The notes below the pieces were generated by a model that saw only the letters and a program-made list of their open reading frames with translations, had not been told where the DNA came from and ran no database searches. Positions 21,501 through 28,086 of a stretch of 34,934 nucleotides of DNA are shown one piece after another. The number at the start of each line of letters is the position of its first letter. Position 1 is the first letter of the stretch. The stretch is from an uncultured Bacteroidales bacterium (GTDB taxonomy: Bacteria; Bacteroidota; Bacteroidia; Bacteroidales; Paludibacteraceae). Position numbers and translations under genes: made by a program. The DNA lies in NCBI GenBank assembly GCA_900319035.1, contig ONMU01000025.1:1-34934 (forward strand), given 5' to 3'.

Positions 21501-22749
21501 AATGTTGGAATAAAAAATCGTTATACGGGTAACGCTTCACGTGAATAGCTTTTATACGATCGTACATGAGCGCGCGCAAAGCGTCAATGTTTTCTTTGTT
21601 TCTCGCGGAAATGAAGATGCAGTCCTCGCCAAGTCTTGCCATCCACGTCTTTTGCAGATCTTCCAAGGAGTAGTTCTCCCGCTGCATCGGCGTGAGGTCA
21701 TCTTCTTCTTTCGGTGTATAAGTGAAGTTATCAATCTTGTTAAAGACAACGATTTGAGGAATCTCCCGTTGACTCTCTCCCTTCCCTTTAGGAGAGGGTT
21801 GAGGTGAGGTGATCTCCCTGATTGTCTGTTCGACTACTTCGTACTGCTCTTCGAAATTAGGATGCGAGATGTCCACTACATGGATCAGCAGATCCGCCTC
21901 GCGCACCTCGTCAAGCGTCGATTTGAAGGACTCGACCAAGTGGTGAGGCAGTTTGCGGATGAAGCCGACAGTGTCGGAGAGCAGGAACGGCAGGTTCTCG
22001 ATTGTCACTTTGCGTACCGTGGTGTCAAGGGTAGCAAAGAGTTTGTTCTCCGCGAAGACATCGGATTTGGAGAGCAGGTTCATGAGTGTCGATTTGCCGA
22101 CGTTCGTATATCCGACGAGTGCCACACGAACCATCTTTCCGCGATGCTGGCGTTGGGTAGCCATCTGTTTGTCAATGGTCTTGAGTTGCTCGCGCAGCAA
22201 GGCGATACGCTGACCGATGACCCGTTTATCCGCCTCTATCTGGGTTTCACCCATACCGCGGTTCGTTCCTCCACCACCGCGCTGACGATCCAAGTGCGAC
22301 CACATCCTCGTCAGACGAGGAAGCATGTATTGCAGATGTGCCATCTCGACTTGCGTCTTCGCATAGGAAGTCTGCGCACGTTGGAGGAAAATCTCCAAAA
22401 TCAATATCGTTCGGTCAATCACACGCACGTCCGGCTTGCCCTTGTGGTTCAGCGCTTTCTCTATGTTTCGAATCTGTCTCGGACTCAACTCATCGTCAAA
22501 GATCACCACGTCTATGGGATGATGCTCCAAAATAAATTGGTCAATCTCACTCAGCTTTCCTTCTCCCACATATGTAGCCGTATTAGGCAGATCAAGACGT
22601 TGGGTAAAGCGTTTGACGGGTACGATACCATGCGTGTCGGCAAGGAATGCCAACTCGTCGAGGTATTCTTTCGTGCGGTCTTCCGGCTGGTTCGGAGTGA
22701 TCAGTCCGACCAACACCGCGTGTTCAATATAGGGCTTGATTTCAATCAT
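21487..22749 (-). CDS. hflX: Ribosome-associated GTPase HflX
   Basis: A 420-residue GTPase. The N-terminal HflX domain (about 1-200) includes RLDLPNTATYVGEGKLSEI, FDDELSPRQIRNIEKAL and VIDRTILILEIFLQRAQT, then the glycine-rich QRGGGGTNRGMGETQIEADKR. G-motifs follow: G1 GYTNVGKST near 213, G2 LDTTVRK, G3 DTVGFI near 259, G4 NKID near 337, and the G5-like ISARN. HflX rescues stalled or heat-damaged ribosomes by splitting them. Residues 313-327 (TSPQPSPKGKGES) come from the palindromic repeat at 21777-21809, placed between G3 and G4. Its ATG overlaps the lemA stop (ATGA). Confidence 0.95.
   Translation of the reverse strand: MIEIKPYIEHAVLVGLITPNQPEDRTKEYLDELAFLADTHGIVPVKRFTQRLDLPNTATYVGEGKLSEIDQFILEHHPIDVVIFDDELSPRQIRNIEKALNHKGKPDVRVIDRTILILEIFLQRAQTSYAKTQVEMAHLQYMLPRLTRMWSHLDRQRGGGGTNRGMGETQIEADKRVIGQRIALLREQLKTIDKQMATQRQHRGKMVRVALVGYTNVGKSTLMNLLSKSDVFAENKLFATLDTTVRKVTIENLPFLLSDTVGFIRKLPHHLVESFKSTLDEVREADLLIHVVDISHPNFEEQYEVVEQTIREITSPQPSPKGKGESQREIPQIVVFNKIDNFTYTPKEEDDLTPMQRENYSLEDLQKTWMARLGEDCIFISARNKENIDALRALMYDRIKAIHVKRYPYNDFLFQHYEND
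21777..21809. repeat. In-frame palindromic repeat, copy 2
   Basis: Same element as 9198-9230: CTCCCTTCCCTT, AGG.GAGGG and a closing TGAGG are shared, about 28 of 33 bases. Here it is read on the opposite strand relative to the gene, and still keeps the hflX frame open. Confidence 0.75.
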
Positions 22750-23336
22750 CAGAACTCTACTTTCGGGGCTTTGGAAGCGCCCTCTTCTGCTTCGAAATAC
22801 GGTTTTTTATCAAATCCGAAGATACCTGCAAGGATGTTGTTCGGGAAACGGCGGATGGTCTTGTTGTATGCCTTAGCCGTCTCGTTGAACATCTGACGTG
22901 CGATAGTGATCCGGTTCTCGGTACCTTCGAGTTGTGCTTGCAGGTCGCGGAAGTTCTGGTTCGCTTTGAGATCCGGATAGTTCTCTGCTACAGCGAGCAG
23001 TCGTCCGAGAGCCTGACTCAGTTCACCTTGTGCAGCTTGGTATGCAGCCAGTTGCTCAGGCGTAGCGGTAGCCGGATCAATAGTGATCTGCGTTGCTTTA
23101 GCACGTGCTTCTACCACGCCCTCCAAGGTCTGTTGCTCATGCGCAGCATAACCTTTGACCGTTGCAACGAGGTTCGGTACAAGGTCAGCACGACGCTGGT
23201 ATTGGTTTTCAACCTGCGCCCAAGAGGACTCCACTTCTTCTTCTGATGCAATGAATGCGTTGTACACATTGGCTACCCAAAGGGCAATAATGGCGAGGAT
23301 TCCTAATCCTACAATCCATGGAAGTAATTTTTTCAT
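22749..23336 (-). CDS. lemA: LemA family protein
   Basis: A 195-residue protein with one N-terminal membrane helix (about 7-28) and the LemA helical bundle: VYNAFIASEEEVESSWAQVE, NQYQRRADLVPNLVATVKGY, EARAKATQ, LLAVAENYPDLKANQNF, ENRITIARQMFNETAKAYN and RRFPNNILAG. LemA proteins sit in the inner membrane with a long periplasmic helical part; their biochemical role is not settled. The pairing with a TPM-domain protein is a recurrent one in bacteria. A hairpin array fills the region upstream, and hflX follows by a 4-base overlap. Confidence 0.93.
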   Translation of the reverse strand: MKKLLPWIVGLGILAIIALWVANVYNAFIASEEEVESSWAQVENQYQRRADLVPNLVATVKGYAAHEQQTLEGVVEARAKATQITIDPATATPEQLAAYQAAQGELSQALGRLLAVAENYPDLKANQNFRDLQAQLEGTENRITIARQMFNETAKAYNKTIRRFPNNILAGIFGFDKKPYFEAEEGASKAPKVEF

Positions 23337-23358
23337 TATTGTGTTGTTTATTATTTGC

Positions 23359-23566
23359 TGCGTTTGTTTGGGGCAAAGCCCTTGTTTGACTTTGTTTGTT
23401 TGGGACTACGTCCTTGTTTGACTTTGTTTGTTTGGGGCAAAGCCCTTGTTTGACTTCGTTTGTTTGGAACTACGTCCTTGTTTGACTGCGTGTTCGAACT
23501 CTCAAACAAAGCCCGCAGGGCTCAAACCAACGGACATTGTCCGTCAAACCAAGCCCCAAGGCTTGC
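23359..23566 (-). repeat. Tandem array of short hairpins with constant linkers
   Basis: Four contiguous 32-base units (23359-23390, 23391-23422, 23423-23454, 23455-23486) share the frame TTTGTTTG-hairpin-CTTGTTTGAC. Their stems change in a paired way: GGGC-AAA-GCCC in units 1 and 3, GGAC-TAC-GTCC in unit 2, and the same with one mismatch in unit 4. After a GTTCGAAC palindrome, three units run in the opposite sense with CAAAC linkers: AGCCC/GGGCT, ACGGAC/GTCCGT, AAGCC/GGCTT. The array ends at the TPM gene's stop codon and 22 bases before the lemA start, so it lies inside their shared message. Confidence 0.85.
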
Positions 23567-24493
23567 TTACCATCTTCCTCCGGCACCTCCGCCGAAGGTG
23601 GAACCGCCGCCCCAAGAGCCGCCTCCGCTGAAACTGTTGCCGCCTCCTCCGCCACCTCCGGAGATATAGACCGTGTGGGAGCGTTTGGGGATGATGAACG
23701 GCAGGACGAACACGTTTCCGCAATGGAGACACCGATAGGTTCGTTCGCCTTGTCCTTCGCGGGAGTACGTAGCGGTTGTGAGGATACGCTCGTGTACGGC
23801 GTGCGCGTTACGTTTGCCGCATTTGGGGCAACGCTTGACGGACGACCACCAGCCCATGAAGAAGATGAGCAGGATCACCGCTAACAGGACAACGAGGATG
23901 GTGATGATCTCACCGGTCGTCATCTCTTCCTCATCTGCGTACTGACCGCGGTTGGTGACCGAACGGATGGAGAGCAGCTCTTCCGGCACGTCTCCGTCTG
24001 TGCATATCTCGTATATACGCAGGGCGCCCAGACACAGACCTCCGCCGTAGTCTCCTGCCTGAAAAGCAGGGATCATATCGTCATGGATGATCTGCGAACA
24101 ACGGGCATCGGGCAGCACGCCTTCTATACCAACGCCGGTCATGATACGGATGTCATGGCTCTCCTCCACGAAGAGAATGAGCACGCCGGTGTTCTGACCT
24201 TTCCTGCCTATGCCCCAACGCTGGAAGAGCTCGTACGCAAAATCGAACGCATCGCTTGTGCCGATGGACTCGATAGCTACGACGCACATCTCCACATGCG
24301 TAGCGGCATCGAGCTTCTCAGCGCAGCTGTTGAGCCACACGACATCCGAATCCGCAATCAGCGCATCGGGGTTAGCGACATAGAAATCCTGACCCTCTGT
24401 CTTGGGATCGGGAACCGTAGAGGGCGTATAAACAGCCGCCTGAACGACCGTTACTATCCACAATGCGATATATATTCCTATTCGTCGAAGCAT
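23567..24493 (-). CDS. TPM-domain membrane protein with zinc ribbon and Gly-rich tail
   Basis: A 308-residue protein. Signal peptide or anchor (MLRRIGIYIALWIVTVVQA), then a TPM/Psb32-type domain (about 28-185: DALIADSDVVWLNSCAEKLD, VEMCVVAIESIG, GVLILFVEESHDIRIMTGVGIEG, LPDARCSQIIHDDMIPAFQAG). A membrane helix follows near 213-235, then a zinc ribbon with CPKCG and CLHCG, and a glycine/serine tail ending GGGAGGRW. These proteins often sit next to lemA; a role in envelope or membrane-protein quality control is suggested for relatives but not settled. A longer frame from 24544 would begin inside the promoter, so I chose the ATG at 24493, about 15 bases after the expected start site. Confidence 0.88.
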   Translation of the reverse strand: MLRRIGIYIALWIVTVVQAAVYTPSTVPDPKTEGQDFYVANPDALIADSDVVWLNSCAEKLDAATHVEMCVVAIESIGTSDAFDFAYELFQRWGIGRKGQNTGVLILFVEESHDIRIMTGVGIEGVLPDARCSQIIHDDMIPAFQAGDYGGGLCLGALRIYEICTDGDVPEELLSIRSVTNRGQYADEEEMTTGEIITILVVLLAVILLIFFMGWWSSVKRCPKCGKRNAHAVHERILTTATYSREGQGERTYRCLHCGNVFVLPFIIPKRSHTVYISGGGGGGGNSFSGGGSWGGGSTFGGGAGGRW

Positions 24494-27693: not shown

Positions 27694-28086
27694 TTACCCT
27701 TGATGCTCCGCATCATAGGCTGCCTTTTCGAGACTCCAGAGATAAGCCTTCATGGTTTTTACACCGCCCGGCTGATCCTTCTGCGCTGCGAAAGCGGCTT
27801 GGTCAGCGGAGATCTTCATGAGGTCTTTCGCACGAGCGGCTACTGCTGCTGCCACCGCCGAGAAGCGGTTACGAATACGCGTCTCGTCGGTACTTAACGG
27901 AGTGTTGCGTTTGTAACGCTCGGCGCCAAACGCATAAACGCGCTGACAATTGGGGTTCGTGGTTGCCGCCTTGCGGTGGGTTGCCACCAGATAATTACCG
28001 TGGTTGTGACCGTCCTGTTTCTTCGGTCGTTTCAATGCGCCCGAGATCGTCTCGATTCCCGCAACGCCTACTGTCATTACTGCCAT
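27694..28086 (-). CDS. Conserved-looking island protein of unknown function
   Basis: A 130-residue basic protein. The N-terminal third has GALKRPKKQDGHNHGNYLVATHRK and VYAFGAERYKRNTPLSTDE; the C-terminal half is helical with an alanine-rich run SAVAAAVAARAKDL and ends in KAYLWSLEKAAYDAEHQG. I do not recognise the family. The ATG is only 4 bases past the last hairpin of the array at 28091-28206, so the ribosome must reach a start site flanked by tight stems. The 3' end has been duplicated at 27634-27669. Confidence 0.65.
   Translation of the reverse strand: MAVMTVGVAGIETISGALKRPKKQDGHNHGNYLVATHRKAATTNPNCQRVYAFGAERYKRNTPLSTDETRIRNRFSAVAAAVAARAKDLMKISADQAAFAAQKDQPGGVKTMKAYLWSLEKAAYDAEHQG

Follow-up and report, generated by a model that had tools for sequence, protein, structure and literature searches.

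A modular array of variable-stem hairpins between a TPM-domain gene and lemA, an apparently new type of dispersed palindromic repeat in an uncultured Bacteroidales bacterium

Results

Layout of the array

The window, i.e. the whole stretch of 34,934 nucleotides that was analysed, carries a hairpin array with a period of 32 between the stop codon of a TPM-domain gene and lemA, 22 bases before the lemA start, as the initial annotation had described. Its parts are as follows.

23359..23566, no strand assigned: whole hairpin array in the spacer between the TPM gene and lemA, period 32
23371..23381, minus strand: hairpin GGGC-TTT-GCCC, with CAAACAA on both sides (23364–23370 and 23382–23388)
23389..23395, minus strand: mini-hairpin ACAAAGT, 7 nt, 2-bp stem and triloop
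23403..23413, minus strand: hairpin GGAC-GTA-GTCC
23421..23427, minus strand: mini-hairpin ACAAAGT
23435..23445, minus strand: hairpin GGGC-TTT-GCCC
23453..23459, minus strand: mini-hairpin ACGAAGT
23467..23477, minus strand: hairpin GGAC-GTA-GTTC, with a single G·T wobble
23492..23499, no strand assigned: central palindrome GTTCGAAC, junction of the GTTTG half and the CAAAC half
23510..23522, plus strand: hairpin AGCCC-GCA-GGGCT, preceded by linker CAAACAA at 23503–23509
23530..23544, plus strand: hairpin ACGGAC-ATT-GTCCGT
23550..23565, plus strand: hairpin CAAGCC-CCAA-GGCTTG, 4-nt loop
23567..24544, minus strand: TPM-domain protein gene (PF04536); its stop codon adjoins the array and its start codon is uncertain
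22749..23336, minus strand: lemA (PF04011), start 22 bases from the array

Read in the sense of TPM and lemA, GTTTG-type linkers and three hairpins (stems of 6, 6 and 5 bp) come first, followed by GTTCGAAC and by the CAAACAA half, in which the linker alternates on this strand with 11-nt (4-bp stem) and 7-nt (2-bp stem) triloop hairpins. The 32-base repeat is CAAACAA, an 11-nt hairpin, CAAACAA and a 7-nt mini-hairpin, i.e. two units. The constant linkers TTTGTTTG / CAAAC and the stems GGGC/GCCC, GGAC/GTCC, AGCCC/GGGCT, ACGGAC/GTCCGT and AAGCC/GGCTT are all present as first reported; the fourth stem as read on the minus strand (GGAC..GTTC) has a G·T wobble. Three inverted units are found as claimed, the last with a 4-base loop in place of a triloop. 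The four 32-base units had been called exact, which they are not: 62-nt windows in register are 87% and 97% identical to the reference, and a window starting in the flank is 61% identical. The 7-nt units, ACGAAGT and ACAAAGT here and GCGAAGC and GCGCAGC in other arrays, all have 2-bp stems, and GCGAAGC is known as a DNA mini-hairpin of exceptional stability. In other arrays GTTAAC, GTTTAAAC or GTTCAAAC takes the place of the central palindrome.

The window array contains five non-overlapping triloop hairpins of at least 4 bp against a shuffle mean of 1.29, and 19 of 5000 shuffles reach five. Fold z-scores against shuffles are –3.15 (DNA) and –3.0 (RNA) for the minus strand and –2.66 (DNA) for the plus strand. 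Taken alone, the hairpin density of this array is unusual rather than overwhelming, and the strong evidence is the genome-wide pairing described below. The many-branched RNA star proposed initially, within one message, is not supported by folding: the minimum-energy structure mixes long-range pairing with some of the hairpins. Rfam 15 covariance models gave no match at E up to 1 over positions 23250–23650.

A shared grammar across the genome

In the window's own assembly (2.48 Mb in 97 contigs, labelled G000), BLAST with the array returned 22 matches, the window array counted in, and the linker-pair pattern CAAACAAN{5,17}CAAACAA returned 42, including overlapping and hairpin-less ones; the reversed control returned 3. 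We read 22 further arrays beside that of the window. Their common grammar is the linker CAAAC with two further bases (usually AA or CA), a palindrome around a central triplet, and CAAAC again. Between neighbouring CAAAC words in four genomes lie 217 segments (140 in the own genome, 55 in RUG715, 17 in G059 and 5 in RUG12502), and 184 have a length of 3, 5, 9, 13, 15 or 17; segment lengths are mostly 2+(2k+3) or 3.

Among own-genome spacer segments of 9, 11, 13, 15, 17 or 19 nt, 64/73 form perfect stems, 21 of them distinct, around a triloop, in loci fetched from part of the BLAST and pattern matches and chosen for their linkers, although the BLAST query itself held hairpins. The other nine include G·T wobbles, other mismatches and segments that are not arrays. 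A C–G pair closes the loop in 62 of the 64, and the loops are of 14 kinds, with GNA in 41. Stems that vary with pairing between constant linkers, as claimed for one array, are also seen in the other arrays read. Two-half arrays usually carry a GTTTG half and then a CAAAC half around a palindrome (exceptions L057 and L061), the L005 array has a single orientation, and several arrays adjoin hairpins that look terminator-like by eye.

The longest exact stretch that the window array shares with the 22 others is 27 nt, one unit. Other pairs share at most 46 nt (three hairpins), apart from L002 and L006, which have 64 nt in common and each follow a copy of the same gene. No master copy is visible among the own arrays read.

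As a side observation, a 130-aa protein with no Pfam match (window 27694–28086) is multi-copy, and a hairpin array stands directly after the stop of two other own copies and of two RUG715 copies (L002, L006, L154, L155).

Arrays inside genes

Because the automatic inside/intergenic call is noisy, owing to opposite-strand frames, we claim a coding location in this genome only for genes confirmed by Pfam. In the own genome, in-frame arrays occur in PrmC, in Mrp (between its two domains), in a DUF4861 protein, in the AroA part of a frame and at the very end of FolP, and DprA carries the hairpin-less type in frame between its two domains. The PrmC site (FYRRIAEL/FFEINE) was readable in 25/30 loci and is bare or nearly so in 18, occupied by an array of the present kind in the window's genome and filled, in six loci of the genus, by other in-frame inserts that are unrelated in kind (L253, L254, L256, L258, L272 and L273; compare L252); the check for linker clusters covered L252–L254, L256 and L258. 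In other genomes of the genus, 50 linker clusters were compared with reading frames, and 22 fall within frames of at least 300 codons free of stops, all 22 with most CAAAC on the frame strand, a count made by open frame rather than gene identity in which several clusters are orthologous to each other and some are hairpin-less. The location of arrays in frame inside genes makes a role in RNA alone unlikely and favours a DNA-level element that selection has sifted over an mRNA device.

Two other features of genes were seen. The HflX-like gene has a low-complexity in-frame stretch, SPQPSPKGKGESQ (window 21690–21830, minus strand), apparently derived from another imperfect palindromic repeat (CCCTCTCCTAAAGGGAAGGGAGAG). 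At L049 (1–1299) the AroA frame continues into a glycosyltransferase-like stretch, which is either a gene fusion or an assembly chimera.

Gain, loss and stem change between relatives

In the sister genome RUG715, TPM and lemA are 98% identical to those of the window, and 25 other bases stand where the window carries the array; since these contain GCAAAGC, they may be a remnant left by deletion of the array. The L059 array is likewise absent in RUG715, where about 20–30 other bases stand at that place. Both empty sites are replacements of about 20–30 bases rather than clean insertions, and no target-site duplication was seen. Among 60 other genomes of the genus and our own, 30 TPM loci were fetched and 27 of them examined, the own locus included; lemA was not found in two, and no such array lies upstream of lemA at the 24 other loci that have it. 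The TPM–lemA spacers of L071, L076, L080, L082 and L083 hold other tandem repeats of 7–10 bp, and L080 has them in inverted orientation as well (TTGGTCG ... CGACAAA).

Eight arrays occupy matching positions in the own genome and RUG715. Some pairs are almost unchanged, and the differences in the rest involve whole units, loop bases, a few bases in linkers and a single stem base. Unit number, which had been proposed for comparison between strains, does change by whole hairpins between the arrays of close relatives: units are missing at L004/L153 and gained at L005/L153, and the L213 array has one extra 18-bp hairpin relative to L228 and L250 (94–95% identical). The extra L213 stem, AGGC/GCCT, is unlike both of its neighbours, AGCC/GGCT and AGAC/GTCT. 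Stems themselves also change, with AGCC..GTCT versus AGAC..GTCT between orthologous arrays of the own genome and RUG715, and with a G·T intermediate, GGAC..GTTC, standing between GGAC/GTCC and GAAC/GTTC; orthologues show too few such changes for the rates of stems and loops to be compared. The pairings L049/L215 and L052/L247 were dropped, the alignment not lying over the array, and the hairpin of the L226 group is not shared by L066.

The own genome (L008, 1400–1640) and RUG12502 (L164) carry a near-identical array with adjoining DNA before a gamma-carbonic-anhydrase-like gene, named by reading the protein, in flanks that are 85% identical overall. This disparity suggests transfer or constraint, and recent recombination is possible. 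At this site G523 has a hairpin-less unit where the own genome has a 7-nt hairpin. Beside a hairpin array shared by the own genome and RUG715 (L058, L162), the copy number of the AT-rich short repeat ATATTCCTTAT also seems to differ between the two.

Distribution within and beyond the genus

The initial annotation had made its case depend on such units occurring at other loci or in other strains, and they are found at both. With a slightly looser pattern than that of the order-wide scan below, 42 of 178 genomes of the genus had matches; outside G000 and G526 (taken as RUG715 from identical coordinates), all three free pairs were matched in 45/66 rows from 23 genomes, several of these rows being orthologues of one another, and paired units occur in about 25 of the 178. 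We scanned 393 genomes of 206 genera, assigned to Bacteroidales by the titles of related records, with linkers and closing pair fixed and three pairs free. The own genome gave 30 matches, and 23 of the 392 others gave one or two each, 25 in total, with the reversed control at a like level in these other genomes. With a slightly stricter pattern, 1/25 rows from other genomes of the order had all three free pairs matched. For this linker, the 392 other genomes of the order thus hold only chance-level matches; the absence outside the genus applies to this linker, the one word that the search covered.

Among named records, true arrays are found in the uncultured Bacteroidales RUG715 and RUG12502 and in the Paludibacteraceae MAG RGIG4295. 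A contig scan with CAAACAAGGNNNNNNNCCCAAACAA gave 22 stretches, five of them real arrays (L104, L105, L111, L113 and L117, from RGIG4295, RUG12502 and RUG715). Of the other 17, L101, L114 and L118 are paired as a stem where the pattern matched (L118 is an 18-bp unit repeated in a MAG of Acidobacteriaceae); linkers with varied stems are seen in none of the 17. A scan of viral contigs gave one stretch, not an array. Other species of the genus have a hairpin-less version made of 10-bp units, GTTTGANNTT and TCAAACNNNT, arranged around GTTAAC in several arrays, which fits the same grammar with a stem length of zero.

Candidate enzymes

A co-occurring transposase or reverse transcriptase had been suggested as a check. 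The Y1 transposase domain PF01797 has one weak match in G000 (22.6 bits, or 23.9 with neighbours, against a cut-off of 23) and matches in 8/23 genomes tested, drafts that may miss genes; it was not found in the draft genomes RUG715, which is array-rich, or RUG12502. PF01797 does not track array richness across the 23 genomes, and no clear RAYT/IS200 link was found in these drafts. A link to reverse transcriptase was rejected, with RVT_1 in 4/24 genomes tested (three above the cut-off; G568 and G469, both hairpin-bearing, are among the four) and none in G000 or RUG715.

Discussion

Our data show many arrays per genome, in spacers and in frame in genes, which gain and lose whole units, are present or absent as whole arrays at 98% identical loci, and, as far as they were read, do not have a long copy in common. 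The choice posed at the outset, between selection and a copying mechanism by which hairpins are preserved, still names the right options. The reading we favour, with somewhat less than even confidence, is a genus-specific dispersed palindromic repeat built of modules, each a fixed linker and a perfect triloop hairpin with a free stem, that is reshuffled hairpin by hairpin and whose stems are kept by template switching. The arrays would then be a DNA-level element. Replication slippage and recombination between the identical linkers could add, drop and exchange whole hairpins, so that paired stems would travel as ready-made units. A stalled polymerase that switches template onto its own nascent strand (quasipalindrome correction) could make and repair the stems, in which case both sides of a stem would change and the linkers would not. 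Template switching is a known mutation process that can alter both sides of a stem in a single step. It is reported to generate perfect hairpins and to preserve them (PMC8794818), and in E. coli to bring imperfect inverted repeats closer to perfect pairing (PMC7202029); we infer that it acts in these arrays. If gap repair switched onto another array, the outcome would be a replacement and not a clean insertion. Paired stem differences arise here by two routes. One is the exchange of ready-made hairpins through identical linkers, visible as whole units won or lost, and the other is alteration of the stems themselves, as in the series GGAC/GTCC, GGAC..GTTC, GAAC/GTTC and in AGCC..GTCT versus AGAC..GTCT. 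C–G closing pairs and mostly GNA loops fit compact hairpins of single-strand DNA. The TPM–lemA transcript probably covers the array, which probably has no specific function for either gene and is tolerated in the spacer.

Several observations weigh against this modular reading. The stems could equally be held by selection, which the stepwise G·T intermediates fit as well, and slippage alone leaves the arrival of an array at a new site such as TPM–lemA unexplained. Deletion in RUG715 is a possible account of the empty sites. The near-invariant linkers and C–G closing pair hint at something that recognises them, and the window's genome has its weak Y1 transposase match. That match, the dispersal between and in frame within genes, the site-specific presence and absence, the invariant linker and the single unit as the largest exact sequence in common with the window array would all suit a selfish mobile palindromic element like the Rickettsia palindromic elements or REPs, with an enzyme recognising the hairpin or the CAAAC linker and arrays growing by repeated insertion of adjacent units. 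We consider such an element unlikely, while giving it real weight: no master copy or target-site duplication was seen, the two empty sites differ by replacement, neither of the two enzyme families searched in these drafts shows a clear link to the arrays, and whole-element transposition is weakened because the arrays share no long copy. It is also conceivable, at a rather low probability, that the 7-base linker and a folding rule (perfect stem, 3-base loop, C–G closing pair) are all that is conserved, so that the form of the hairpin would be copied and not its sequence, with new stems made in place by habitual template switching at the linkers or by a hairpin-recognising enzyme.

Readings that give the arrays a role draw on the same features. 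A protein could bind the CAAAC linkers or the triloop hairpins, e.g. as extruded cruciforms, and mark or organise the DNA, with stems selected for shape only; the constant linker, the C–G closing pair in 62 of 64 and the GNA loop in 41 of 64, the usual order of the two halves around a palindrome and the 10-bp period, one helical turn, retained by hairpin-less versions in other species would agree with this. The place of the arrays is not conserved, however, the TPM–lemA array being absent in RUG715 and at the 24 other lemA loci, and we regard a DNA site array as improbable. An RNA element that stabilises transcript ends or tunes lemA translation seems more doubtful still: the probable transcript, folding better than shuffles and neighbouring terminator-like hairpins favour it, but the same arrays lie inside coding sequences, one has a single orientation, relatives lack the array at this junction and Rfam is silent. 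Arrays of single orientation and arrays inside genes led us to reject the one-message star as a general design.

Covarying stems are usually taken as proof of a selected RNA, and here they stand in the spacers and protein genes of one genus. The arrays are therefore a caution for covariation-based RNA discovery, and they also supply core genes with peptide insertions in frame. With dozens of modular copies and close relatives for comparison, they offer a natural system in which to ask whether errors of DNA copying are enough by themselves to produce perfect hairpins and preserve them.

A literature search, which left subscription papers largely outside reach, found no description of a constant-linker, variable-stem design, and the array appears to be a dispersed palindromic repeat of a new type in an uncultured gut bacterium. 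The criterion for a MITE is similar full-length copies with target-site duplication; here at most 27 nt are shared with the 22 other arrays and the two empty sites are replacements. The TAACTGA heptamer direct repeats of Beggiatoaceae, Cyanobacteria and Bacteroidetes, many of them just upstream of start codons, are similar in their short period and in that their means of spread is unknown, but they have a different word (PMC4679880) and no hairpin array, and resemble only the hairpin-less 10-bp version in relatives. The mitochondrial double-hairpin or repetitive hairpin elements of fungi and sponges are likewise tandem hairpins with a few complementary substitutions, in genes and spacers; they are organellar, their stems are largely conserved in sponges while loops vary, and the portion of their description at hand (PMC2800124) gives them no such constant linker. 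REP/BIME sequences, the GTAG-/CGTC-tagged palindromes, are defined by a terminal tetranucleotide and sorted by stem, with stems of 5–13 bp (PMC3733652). Like our arrays, they are dispersed hairpins, often with short loops, whose stems change in a complementary way and which form clusters and dimers. The stems here stand between CAAAC plus two bases and CAAAC, with tags arising only by stem or loop coincidence; there is no fixed tag, the same linker lies on both sides, one genome has 2–7 bp stems of 21 kinds and a clear Y1 transposase link is lacking. Rickettsia palindromic elements, about 150 bp long and in ten families, are short palindromic DNA inserted in frame in unrelated genes (PMC10969869). 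Their hosts belong to a different phylum; the present arrays conserve only the linker, have free stems in tandem modules of 14–24 nt and share no full-length copy, and like those elements they stand in frame in unrelated conserved genes (PrmC, Mrp, DUF4861, the AroA part, the FolP end and, hairpin-less, DprA).
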